NCBI GenBank assembly: GCA_001602415.1
Contig: CP012155.1
Span: 1,782,718-1,846,717 of the forward strand
Reading direction: 5' to 3'
Length of the DNA stretch: 64,000 nt
Source: Bacteroidetes bacterium UKL13-3
Lineage (GTDB): Bacteria > Bacteroidota > Bacteroidia > UKL13-3
In this document: positions 15,477-61,582 of the stretch, one piece after another
Position numbering within the stretch: the stretch's first letter is position 1
Layout of the letters: every line of letters starts with the position of its first letter
Program-made: the position numbers and the translations under genes
Notes under the pieces: model-generated
Seen by the model: only the letters and a program-made list of their open reading frames with translations
The model's database searches: none
What the model was told of the DNA's origin: nothing

Positions 15477-18041
15477 ATGGCAGAAGACAGAATTATTACC
15501 ATCAACATTGAAGATGAAATGAAAACGGCCTATATCGATTATTCGATGTCGGTTATTGTTTCGCGTGCGTTACCAGATGTGCGTGACGGATTAAAGCCCG
15601 TTCACAGGCGTGTTTTGTATGGAATGACCGAGTTGGGATTAGCATCCAACCGTCCGTACAAAAAATCGGCACGTATTGTAGGAGAGGTTTTAGGAAAGTT
15701 TCACCCGCATGGCGATAGTTCCGTATACGATGCGATGGTGCGTATGGCGCAGGATTGGAGCATGCGTTACACGTTGGTTGACGGACAAGGAAACTTTGGT
15801 TCGGTTGATGGTGATCCACCTGCAGCTATGCGTTATACGGAAGCACGTTTGCGCAAAATTGCCGAAGAGCTGTTAACGGATATTGAAAAAAATACGGTGG
15901 ATTTCCGCCCCAATTTTGACGACTCGTTGCAAGAGCCAACCGTGTTGCCGGCTAAAATTCCTCATTTATTGGTAAATGGTGCATCGGGTATTGCTGTGGG
16001 TATGGCTACTAATATGGCGCCACACAACCTTACTGAGGTTATTGATGGAACATTGGCTTATATCGACAATCGCGAAATTGAAATCAGTGAGTTAATGAAA
16101 TTTGTGAAAGCTCCCGATTTCCCTACAGGTGGTATCATCTACGGATATGAAGGAGTAAAAGAAGCCTTTGAAACAGGAAGAGGTCGCATAGTGATGCGCG
16201 CCAAAGCTGTGTTCGAAACATCTAAAACCGGTAAAGACCAGATTGTAGTAAACGAAATTCCTTACCAAATTAACAAAGCGGTATTGATAGCCAAAACAGC
16301 TGAGTTAATTAACGAAAAGGTAATTGAAGGTATTTCGGAAATACGTGACGAGAGTGACCGTGACGGTATGCGTATCGTTTACGATATTAAGCGTGATGCG
16401 ATTCCGAATATCGTACTCAACAAACTATACAAATACACAGCTCTTCAAACATCTTTTAGCGTAAACAACGTAGCCTTGGTAAAAGGTCGCCCGGAGATGC
16501 TAAACCTAAAAGATCAAATCAGGCATTTTGTGGATCACCGCCATGATGTGGTGGTGCGCAGAACCAAGTTTGAATTGGAAGAAGCTCAAAAACGTGCTCA
16601 TATTTTAGAAGGGTTATTAATTGCTTTAGATAACCTTGATGCCGTTATTAAATTAATTCGCGAAGCGAAAACTCCTGATGAGGCTCGTGAAGGGTTGATG
16701 ACCAATTTTAAGTTAAGTGAAATTCAAGCGAAAGCCATTTTGGATATGCGTTTACGCGTATTAACCGGACTGGAGCGTGATAAGATTAAAGATGAGTACG
16801 CAGAGTTAATGAACTTGATTAACTACCTGCAATCTGTATTGGCTGACGAAGGCTTGCGATTCCAAATCATCAAAGATGAGTTGGCCGAGATGAGAGAGAA
16901 GTACGGTGATAAACGCAGAACCGAAATTGTGTTTGCCGGAAATGATATGAGCATGGAAGATTTAATTCCGGATGATGAAGTGGTGATTACCATTTCGCAC
17001 ATGGGTTATGTAAAACGTACTTCATTAACCGAATACCGCACCCAAAACAGAGGAGGACGAGGTTCAAGAGGTGTTGCCAAACGCCAAGAGGATTTTGTTG
17101 AACACGTATTTATGGCTACCAACCACAACTATATGTTGTTCTTCACCAACCAGGGTAAATGCTTCTGGTTAAAAGTTTGGGAAATTCCGGAAGGTGATAA
17201 AACAGCTAAAGGAAGAGCTATCCAAAACCTCATTAATATTAGTCCAGAAGATAAAGTGATGGCCTACCTTAATGTAAAAACATTGAGTGATGAGGAATAC
17301 TTAGCCAACAACTATGTAATGATGTGTACCGAGCAGGGAACCATCAAGAAGACTACTTTAGAGGCTTATTCACGTCCGCGTGCCAATGGTGTAAATGCCA
17401 TCAATGTGCGTGAGGGAGATATGCTGGTAGAAGCTCGTTTAACCACAGGTTCAAGCGAAATCATTATTGCCAGCCAAGAAGGTAAAGCCATTCGTTTCAA
17501 CGAAAGCAGCGTTCGCCCAATGGGCAGAACGGCTACCGGAGTGAGAGCTATTCGTTTGGCCGATGGAGATACGGTATTGGGTATGATTGCCATCGAAAAT
17601 CCGCAAACAACCAATGTATTAGTAGTAACTGAAAATGGTATGGGTAAACGTTCGGATGTGGAAGATTACCGAATCACCAACCGTGGAGGTAAAGGAGTAA
17701 TGGCCATGAATGTTACCGAAAAAACAGGTAAACTCGTTGCTATTAAAGAGGTAGACGATACCAACGATATTATGATTATGACCAAAGCGGGTATTACTAT
17801 TCGCTTAAGTGTGAAAGACCTGAGAGTATTGGGTCGCGTAACCCAAGGAGTTCGTTTGATTAATATTGATGATAAGGATTCGATTGCTTCTATTGCAAAA
17901 GTGGATTATGTAGAAGAAGTGGAAGAGGTTGTAGAAGGCGCAGAAGTTACTGAAGGAACAGAACCAACAGGAGAGGAGCCAACTACAGATACTCCGGAAG
18001 CACCTCCAACCGGTGAAGCAGATGCACCGCCTGTTGAATAA
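15477..18041 (+). CDS. gyrA: DNA gyrase subunit A
   Basis: 854 residues. The N-terminal breakage-reunion domain has [21 protein letters not shown], the quinolone region [18 protein letters not shown] (wild-type-looking serine and tyrosine/aspartate positions) and the catalytic tyrosine in [10 protein letters not shown] near residue 121. The C-terminal DNA-wrapping beta-pinwheel carries a GyrA box variant QNRGGRG, which separates it from ParC. The last 45 residues are an acidic, proline- and threonine-rich tail ([20 protein letters not shown] and on). It cuts and passes DNA together with GyrB to add negative supercoils. It is monocistronic, with a terminator after it. Confidence 0.97.
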
Positions 18042-18255: not shown

Positions 18256-18420
18256 ATCTTAGCGCAAAACGATAAGCCGGGTTCTGTCCTTTAAACCAAT
18301 TACTTGATTCAAAGCGATTGTCATTTATCTCCGATAACCATCACTGATTACCTCTAGCAGCCTACCCACCGGCATCGAACGAGAAGTTCTTTTATCAGCT
18401 TACTCAATACAACCACTAAA

Positions 18421-18445
18421 GGTTGCTGAGCGAAGCCGAAGCACC
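18421..18445 (-). repeat. CTGAGCGAAGCCGAAG-type palindromic repeat in the P16/P17 region of rnpB
   Basis: GGTTGCTGAGCGAAGCCGAAGCACC folds on itself (outer GGTTGC with GCACC). Its core resembles the CACTGAGCG-N-AGTCGAAGTG palindromes common between Bacteroidota genes, and it resembles the element at 18541. Confidence 0.6.
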
Positions 18446-18540
18446 GGCCTATTTGGCCTTACAACCCGTGAGGTTTACCTTGCTTCCGTCATTACTGGCG
18501 GAACGGTGGTCTCTTACACCGCCTTTTCACCTTTTCCGCA

Positions 18541-18575
18541 AAAAGGTCACTGAGCCTAGGCCGAAGTGACTTTTT
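18541..18575 (-). repeat. CACTGAGCCTAGGCCGAAGTG-like palindrome in the P12 region of rnpB
   Basis: AAAAGGTCAC pairs with GTGACTTTTT around TGAGCCTAGGCCGAA. Aligned with the 18421 element, the two share CTGAGC..AG.CCGAAG. Confidence 0.6.
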
Positions 18576-18681
18576 GAGGTAGTTTAATTTTCTGCGGCAC
18601 TATCTGTAAACCCAATATTATACTGAGCTTCCCACCCGTTAGGTGGCACGGCACTCTGTGTTGCCCGGACTTTCCTCCATG

Positions 18682-18703
18682 TATCCCGATAGCTATCGGG
18701 ATA
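18682..18703. repeat. Perfect palindrome CCCGATAGCTATCGGG in the P3 helix of rnpB
   Basis: A 22-bp perfect palindrome (TAT...ATA around the named core). The same core occurs between genes at 61556, and with one change at 55042, so it is a dispersed element that has entered a structural RNA. Confidence 0.75.
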
Positions 18704-18728
18704 ACAAGGCGACAATCTGTTTTGCACG

Positions 18729-19004: not shown

Positions 19005-21074
19005 TTACAACTGTTTTAAATACTCATAAGTATCATACTGCGCCCTTACTGCTTTACTTCCAGAAATGCGGTGAACATACTTATTATCAAAATCGTGATC
19101 AATAACGCGGGCTTTAACATTATCCTTCAACTGAATGTCGATAATATCTTTAATTTGTTGGCGGCAGTTTTCATCAAATATTGGAAAAGCACATTCTACT
19201 CTTCGGTAAAGGTTACGGGTCATCCAATCGGCAGAGGAGAGGTACATTTTTTCATCGCCACCATTGGCAAAAATAAACACTCGTGCATGTTCAAGTAACC
19301 TATCAATGATACTTACTACTTCAATATTTTCGCTTAATCCTTTTACACCCGGAACCAACGTACAAATACCACGAATAATCAGTTTAATATTCACACCTGC
19401 TCGGCTGGCTTCATAAAGTTTACGAACAACGCCATCATCCATCAAGCTATTCATCTTGGCAATAATATAGGCAGGTTTACCTTTTTTAGCATTGGCAATT
19501 TCTTTGTCAATTAGCTCTAAAAATTGTTTGAGCAAATAATCAGGGGCAACAAGTAAATGGTCGAATTTATGCTTACGCGGACCTTGGAACAAAACATCCA
19601 TTAGCTTTTCCATATCATCGGTTAAGCGTTTATCTTTAGTAAACAACCCATGATCACAGTATAGTTTAGCTGTTACACCATTATAGTTTCCTGTTGAAAG
19701 ATGTGCGTACTTAACTGTTTTTCCTTCTTCTTCACGGTATATCAAACAGGCTTTACAATGAACTTTTTGTCCTGGTTTGCCAAAATGCACACGTGCTCCA
19801 GCTTCCTGTAATTGGTTAGTCCAAAATATATTATGCTCCTCATCAAACCTAGCCTGAAGCTCCATTAAAACAGTTACCTTTTTGCCGTTTTTTACAGCAT
19901 TTATTAAAGCATTTACAACGTTACTATGCTTGGCAACTCGATACAAGGTAATTTTTATAGCTCTAACTTTAGGATCAATGGCGGCCTCGCGAAGCATGCG
20001 AATAAGGTAATCAAAACTTTGGTAGGGGTGGTGCAAAACAAAATCCTTATGCTTTATAATATCAAACATGGTGCGTGCCTTATCCAATTCGTTAACCGCT
20101 AATGGCGGCATAGGTGGATAATAATCATTCACATTACCCACTTTAGGAAAGTCCATAAAATCCTTAAAATTATGGTACCTGCCGCCCGGAATAAGGTTTA
20201 CGTTTTTAAGTTGCAATTTAAGCGAGAGTAAATCGAGCATAGTTTTAGGTAAACTGCTGTCGTATATGAATCGGGTAGGAACACCCTTTGAGCGCTGTTT
20301 AATGCTTTTTTGTATTTTATCGAGCAAGGTTTCTTTAAACACATCATTTTCTTCGCTTTCCAATACAAAATCGGCATCGCGGGTAAGTTTAACTGTAAAC
20401 GCATCGTATGTATTGTAATCAAAAATGGAGAAAATATGTTTGAGTGAAATACGAATTACATCATCCAAAAACATAATAAACGTATTTTCATCTGTGCGCG
20501 GCAAAATGTAAAAACGTTTTAATGCATCTTCCGGAATTTCGATAAGTGCATGTTTAGGCTTAAGGTCTTCGTTAGTATGACTTAGGCGAACAGCTAAATA
20601 AATCGATCGATCCTTTAAGTGAGGAATATGTTTGAGGTCGTCAATCAACACCGGAAATAAATGGGGAAGAACCTCTCGTTTAAAATAATCCTTAACAGTT
20701 ACCTTTTGGTTTTCATCCAACTGTTGCTCATTGATAATAAATATTTTTTGCAGAGCGAGTTCGGCAATAATGCTATTGTAAACCTTGTTAAAGCGATCTT
20801 GCTGAATAACAGCTACACGTTGAATTTCGGCAAGCGTGGTATCTGGAGGAAATTGTGTTTCGGATTGTTTGCGACTACCTTTTTGTCCTCTGCGCAAAGC
20901 AGCTACACGTACCCTAAAAAACTCATCGTTGTTTGACGAAAAAATGGCCAGAAATTTAAGCCGTTCCAATAGGGGCGTTTCAGTATTTTCGGCCTCTTGC
21001 AACACGCGCTCGTTAAACAACATCCAGCTGAGTTCACGGTCTTTATATAGATTGCCTTGGTATTCCTTAATCAT
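19005..21074 (-). CDS. ppk1: Polyphosphate kinase 1
   Basis: 689 residues, normal length for PPK1. The N domain begins KDRELSWMLFNERVLQEAEN and LERLKFLAIFSSNNDEFFRVR. The catalytic part holds YQSFDYLIRMLREAAIDPKVRAI, the first active histidine in YAHLSTGNYN with LYCDHGLFT, and the second in RLLEHARVFIF, preceded by RGICTLVPGVKGLSENI. It makes inorganic polyphosphate from ATP reversibly, usually as a membrane-associated tetramer. It is transcribed alone. A TATTTTTG box on the minus strand (21093-21086), 12 bases before the start codon, fits a -7 element, so its leader would be very short. Confidence 0.97.
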   Translation of the reverse strand: MIKEYQGNLYKDRELSWMLFNERVLQEAENTETPLLERLKFLAIFSSNNDEFFRVRVAALRRGQKGSRKQSETQFPPDTTLAEIQRVAVIQQDRFNKVYNSIIAELALQKIFIINEQQLDENQKVTVKDYFKREVLPHLFPVLIDDLKHIPHLKDRSIYLAVRLSHTNEDLKPKHALIEIPEDALKRFYILPRTDENTFIMFLDDVIRISLKHIFSIFDYNTYDAFTVKLTRDADFVLESEENDVFKETLLDKIQKSIKQRSKGVPTRFIYDSSLPKTMLDLLSLKLQLKNVNLIPGGRYHNFKDFMDFPKVGNVNDYYPPMPPLAVNELDKARTMFDIIKHKDFVLHHPYQSFDYLIRMLREAAIDPKVRAIKITLYRVAKHSNVVNALINAVKNGKKVTVLMELQARFDEEHNIFWTNQLQEAGARVHFGKPGQKVHCKACLIYREEEGKTVKYAHLSTGNYNGVTAKLYCDHGLFTKDKRLTDDMEKLMDVLFQGPRKHKFDHLLVAPDYLLKQFLELIDKEIANAKKGKPAYIIAKMNSLMDDGVVRKLYEASRAGVNIKLIIRGICTLVPGVKGLSENIEVVSIIDRLLEHARVFIFANGGDEKMYLSSADWMTRNLYRRVECAFPIFDENCRQQIKDIIDIQLKDNVKARVIDHDFDNKYVHRISGSKAVRAQYDTYEYLKQL

Positions 21075-55033: not shown

Positions 55034-55068
55034 AAATCTCTCCCGATAGCTATCGAGACTCAAATCAC
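55034..55068. repeat. Dispersed repeat carrying CCCGATAGCTATCG(A)G, copy 1
   Basis: AAATCTCTCCCGATAGCTAT followed by CGAGACTCAAATCAC. It matches the copy at 61548 in all but three or so of the 35 positions. It lies just upstream of mutS2. Confidence 0.7.
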
Positions 55069-61547: not shown

Positions 61548-61582
61548 AAATCTCTCCCGATAGCTATCGGGACTCAAGTCTC
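61548..61582. repeat. Dispersed repeat carrying CCCGATAGCTATCGGG, copy 2
   Basis: AAATCTCTCCCGATAGCTAT followed by CGGGACTCAAGTCTC. It lies between the SDR and redoxin genes, beside ACATCTAACATC-like units. The core is a perfect 16-bp palindrome, as in rnpB. Confidence 0.75.

Follow-up and report, generated by a model that had tools for sequence, protein, structure and literature searches.

In the window analysed here (the whole stretch of 64,000 nucleotides), rnpB most probably encodes a type A RNase P RNA that is intact and presumably functional, and in which the tips of helices P3, P12 and P16/P17 have been replaced or extended by two families of dispersed palindromes, PAL1 and PAL2; we put the probability of this reading at roughly 0.88. 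The repeats are dispersed in the genome and lie within its own rnpB, are missing from the rnpB of the nearest relatives, and recur in the same or other peripheral helices of many unrelated Bacteroidota.

A complete RNase P RNA gene with three extended helices

The rnpB gene spans the whole of the Rfam type A model RF00010 with a score (Table 1) well above the gathering score of 100, and its conserved blocks are present and intact, in agreement with the first-pass annotation, which had described the core of the RNA in the same terms. There is no second RF00010 match elsewhere in the 3.24-Mb single-contig genome, rnpB thus being single. Given its conservation, intact core and single copy, it presumably yields a working RNase P RNA. 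It is flanked by open reading frames that, from their translations, we take to be gyrA (15477-18041, + strand) and the gene for polyphosphate kinase (19005-21074, - strand).

Within a family set of 54 rnpBs (its own included, together with a single congener), this gene is the longest: the 53 other complete family rnpBs measure 367-421 nt, and 405 nt separate its first from its 3' conserved block, where the others have a median of 346 nt and a maximum of 372 nt. A search for relatives at the level of the order gave the same 64 genomes as that for the family. In the alignment, three stretches (18686-18696, 18552-18568 and 18398-18428) have no counterpart in at least 90% of family rnpBs; they form the outer ends of P3, P12 and P16/P17, the same three sites in which palindromes had initially been annotated. 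In type A RNAs these helices are peripheral and variable in length. The window's rnpB is a full member of RF00010, and differs from an ordinary type A RNase P RNA in the repeat-derived tips of these three helices.

Table 1 Positions of rnpB, its repeats and further PAL1 copies (window coordinates unless a contig is given).
Feature	Position	Strand	Details
rnpB, type A RNase P RNA	18257-18728	-	472 nt; RF00010, 250.4 bits, E 2.3e-80, model 1-367
PAL1 in distal P3	18682-18703	.	TATCCCGATAGCTATCGGGATA; 18-bp unit TCCCGATAGCTATCGGGA plus TA/TA
P12 tip on PAL2 copy	18543-18575	-	PAL2 core 18550-18566, CTGAGCCTAGGCCGAAG on the + strand
P16/P17 extra hairpin	18397-18445	-	PAL2 core 18426-18441 as 5' arm; CAACC..GGTTG tip
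Dispersed intergenic PAL1 copy	61556-61571	.	exact match
Dispersed PAL1 copy	55042-55057	.	one mismatch
PAL1 tandem arrays	G000:C1:170711-174043, 174093-174993, 2179644-2180118, 2327855-2328568		outside the window

Two palindrome families dispersed in the genome

PAL1 is a perfect palindrome of 18 bp (TCCCGATAGCTATCGGGA), the unit common to dispersed copies whose flanks are mostly unrelated. Its 16-bp core, CCCGATAGCTATCGGG, occurs in 52 exact copies in the genome (reversed control, 0), about 20 of them at single sites and the remainder inside four unrelated tandem arrays. The window itself holds three PAL1 matches where shuffled sequence predicts 0.01. Both spacer copies noted in the initial annotation are real, each lying 8 bases beyond the position given for it (55034 and 61548) and the first carrying a mismatch. 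PAL2 (CTGAGC-N-GNCGAAG) is an imperfect palindrome with eight strict genome copies, two of them in rnpB (control, 0); its total comes to about 13 when the 12 sites with at most two mismatches are taken together with the 17-nt form in P12. PAL1 thus has the character of a REP-type repeat, with many short palindromic copies dispersed mostly outside genes, and PAL2 is the less numerous of the two. These counts bear out the annotation's description of the palindromes as dispersed, which it had named as a point on which its reading could fail.

The arrays have periods of 410, 80, 65 and 99, and each of their units holds a single PAL1, as though PAL1 had seeded tandem amplification or favours it. 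The 99-bp array (L103:1015-1770, + strand) can be read as an open frame of about 252 codons in which 33 residues repeat, although it may be open by chance. PAL2 lies inside a 30-bp tandem array at L108:1011-1150 (CTTCGACTCCGCTCAGCAACCCAACCACTG).

All three palindromes annotated within rnpB were recovered, the one in P3 (TATCCCGATAGCTATCGGGATA) exactly as described and the two CTGAGC..CGAAG elements as the PAL2 cores of P16/P17 and P12 (Table 1). Folding places the P12 copy at the centre of one predicted hairpin and makes the P16/P17 copy the 5' arm of a long one, the 3' arm of which, by inspection, resembles a decayed inverted PAL2. Since this 3' arm pairs with the PAL2 copy, the hairpin extends to about 18397, and the extent first given for the element (18421-18445) was too short. 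Each repeat in rnpB is a single palindrome, free of tandem units. PAL1 and PAL2 together occupy three helices of one rnpB, and its nearest relatives have neither there.

The repeats are missing from nearly all family relatives

The best PAL1 match in the 54 family rnpBs has no mismatch in the window's own gene, one in L036 and at least five in all others; for PAL2, the corresponding values are none in the window's gene, none in L012 and at least five in all others. The repeats are therefore missing from 51 of the 53 other family rnpBs. L036 (PAL1) and L012 (PAL2) both carry their repeat in P12 and belong to two different genera, neither of them that of the window; PAL1 is also dispersed in the L036 genome, as is PAL2 in that of L012 (12 copies in all). 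L029, a congener of L036, has a shorter P12 of the form CCCGAT-loop-ATCGGG. The P12 repeats of L012 and L036 are independent occurrences.

All three repeats are likewise missing from the window's one congener (G001), which has short, unrelated hairpins at P3 (GCTGCC-GCAA-GGTGGT), P12 and P16/P17. Its genome contains 13 PAL1-type sites, although its rnpB is without PAL1, and no strict PAL2 was found in that genome. The two rnpBs are only 76% identical, and this single comparison represents the window's lineage; the pairs of close relatives described below come from Flavobacterium. The alignment of relatives was one of the checks that the first-pass annotation had proposed, with the same hairpins at the same places and with compensatory changes in relatives as the outcome that would count against it; the hairpins are not shared.

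The three hairpins might instead be native helices that resemble the dispersed palindromes by convergence, given that GC-rich hairpins with CCGAT/ATCGG arms are common in these genomes. Native P3 stems of a Flavobacterium-like genus often read TCCCGAT-loop-ATCGGGA, the P12 of L029 is of the same kind, and a few such stems are found across the class. However, the window's copies are exact to the genomic repeats over 16-18 nt, including the AGCT centre, whereas unoccupied family rnpBs remain at least five mismatches away; a helix does not require the exact sequence of an imperfect palindrome such as PAL2; and the congener's hairpins are unrelated in sequence. Convergence is very improbable on this evidence, and we reject it for the window's rnpB on the strength of the mismatch counts.

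PAL1 recurs in rnpB across Bacteroidota and turns over between close relatives

We scanned 84,980 species genomes for a PAL1-type palindrome at most 30 nt from the first conserved rnpB block and found 22 further species, all of them Bacteroidota and all with the palindrome placed in P3. The genera include Flavobacterium, Algoriphagus, Salinimicrobium, Neolewinella, Mucilaginibacter, Aequorivita, Psychroflexus and Maribacter. The rnpBs of these species match Rfam, that of L059, which runs off the end of its stretch, scoring below threshold. Some of the 22 carry further PAL1 copies in P9, P12, P16/P17 or the region after P18: PAL1 is found in P3, P12 and after P18 in Neolewinella xylanilytica, in P3, P9 and P12 in L059, in P3 and P9 in Flavobacterium ASV13, in P3 and after P18 in Mucilaginibacter corticis, and in three copies in Aequorivita capsosiphonis. 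Surveyed across the class, P3 is usually a short hairpin, and among the matches listed no P3 contains PAL1. In the P3s of L064, L072 and L076, PAL1 is enclosed by nested TCCCG/CGGGA arms, as though one palindrome had entered another. In Flavobacterium tagetis, a Flavo-1 RNA (RF01705; L062:5638-5712, + strand) lies about 430 nt upstream of rnpB.

Turnover can be followed in the Flavobacterium-like genus, where 5 of the 88 P3s listed contain PAL1. In two pairs, L225/L227 and L223/L231, only one member has PAL1 in P3, the rest of rnpB being 97.7% and 96.1% identical, respectively; in the alignment of both pairs, the lower P3 stem is kept and the old tip is replaced. On a tree of 193 rnpBs from which the P3 region had been left out, the distribution of PAL1 in P3 requires at least 16 changes, and well-supported branches make 8 of these unavoidable; gain and loss are indistinguishable here, and rnpB trees are weak at depth. 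PAL1 in rnpB thus turns over between close relatives, and in the close pairs a hairpin tip seems to have been exchanged, with no sign of a clean insertion. The proposal of repeated insertion into tolerant loops, made when the window was first annotated, is supported as far as repetition is concerned (22 species, rnpBs with several occupied helices, at least 16 changes on the tree), with the refinement that the palindrome seems to take the place of the old tip.

Many native Flavobacterium P3 stems (L221-L240 and the genus listing) have PAL1 arms around another loop. Such PAL1-like arms could go back to an old arrival, offer an easy path for exchange or be coincidental, and part of the Flavobacterium resemblance could stem from shared ancestry or convergence instead of fresh arrival. 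The window is unaffected by this caveat, because the P3 stems of its family are unrelated. That such arms are native to Flavobacterium P3 also raises the converse idea, namely that dispersed PAL1 derives from an rnpB P3 helix; but the window's family combines unrelated P3 stems with many PAL1 copies, and several different helices hold PAL1, so that we give a P3 origin almost no credence.

Frequency of repeats in rnpB and in flanking DNA

The presence of three repeats within one 472-nt gene raises the possibility that rnpB hairpins are a preferred target for these palindromes. Two of the about 13 PAL2 copies lie in rnpB (p = 1.6e-4, assuming a 10% non-coding genome), and the rnpBs of 20 named loci contain 27 PAL1 copies, while 149 kb of their flanks contain none. 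However, it was this load that drew attention to the window, so its exceptional PAL2 value belongs to a gene picked for that reason, and carrying a copy in P3 was the criterion for choosing the named set. In an unselected sample of 99 class rnpBs and 54 family rnpBs (the window's own included), 63 kb of rnpB yielded 6 copies. Non-coding flanks gave 2 in 85 kb, a difference that is not significant (p = 0.07), and coding flanks gave 3 in 734 kb, a rate far below that of rnpB (p = 1.7e-5). As rnpB in the unselected samples carries repeats at about the same rate as spacer DNA, targeting of rnpB is not shown, and we consider a hot spot unlikely.

Proposed arrival and persistence of the palindromes

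A palindrome may reach rnpB by either of two routes: replication or repair of a hairpin-forming stretch could switch template to a palindrome elsewhere, or a palindrome could insert, with subsequent loss of the old tip. A copy would then survive by folding as a hairpin, so extending a helix that is remote from the active site; its survival would follow from the peripheral, length-variable nature of these helices, in which a palindrome adds helix rather than disrupting one. Later decay would proceed through changes that often keep pairing. More tentatively, and at less than even odds, the peripheral helices of the ribozyme may have been renewed repeatedly throughout the phylum by transposase-free tip exchange with dispersed palindromes through template switching, older arrivals, such as the PAL1-armed P3 of Flavobacterium, now looking ordinary.

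A different route would be REP-type transposition, in which a Y1 transposase (RAYT or IS200-like) makes clean insertions. The repeats are indeed short, palindromic and dispersed, ten Y1 transposase matches occur in the genome, and direct repeats of 3-4 bp edge 4 of 18 distinct dispersed PAL1 sites (shuffles, 1.2; p = 0.014), a weak sign of target-site duplication that is partly owed to a common TTTGAG context. By contrast, the 1.5 kb around each of the ten Y1 genes contains neither PAL1 nor PAL2, three identical Y1 genes carry unrelated palindromes of their own, and the close pairs show an old tip replaced with nothing added. On balance, such transposition seems unlikely. No enzyme linked to PAL1 or PAL2 was found in the search of 1.5 kb around the ten Y1 matches, and mobilisation by this genome's Y1 transposases is rejected because the palindromes are not nearby.

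The three identical matches are of IS200 type (G000:C1:1047438, 2537944 and 2718804), the first being flanked by palindromes of 38 and 28 bp that are unrelated to PAL1 and PAL2. Many PAL1 copies have GAG or CTC at each edge as part of a TTTGAG/CTCAAA context (L089, L097, L100, L101, L104 and 61556 in the window); these edges possibly represent a 3-bp target duplication or a target preference.

Discussion

Repeats inside rnpB are already known, the nearest precedent being the STRR sequences that heterocyst-forming cyanobacteria have in rnpB (Vioque 1997, NAR 25:3471; cited in PMC2858038). The likeness lies in dispersed short repeats within an RNase P RNA gene, and the Bacteroidota case differs in involving two palindrome families, several helices, and presence or absence between close relatives. 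The cyanobacterial STRR are reportedly tandem short repeats, unlike the single palindromes in the window's rnpB. REP, BIME and REPIN elements are similarly short, dispersed, intergenic and hairpin-forming; PAL1 differs from them as a perfect 18-bp palindrome with no RAYT gene found associated and with copies within a structured RNA that is essential. The palindromic elements of Rickettsia are likewise accepted inside functional genes, chiefly protein genes, and are much longer. Searches of the open literature, outside which most subscription papers lie, found no paper on the PAL1 letters or on palindromes in Bacteroidota RNase P RNA, and none that treats Rickettsia palindromes together with RNase P RNA.

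For structure-based annotation, repeat-derived helices of this kind are a warning. The close pairs provide material for asking how short palindromes without an enzyme of their own move, and exchange with such repeats is a candidate reason for the wide variation of the peripheral helices of RNase P RNA in Bacteroidota. Together, these rnpBs form a natural series of changes made to an essential ribozyme by repetitive DNA, which can remodel such an RNA and yet leave it intact.
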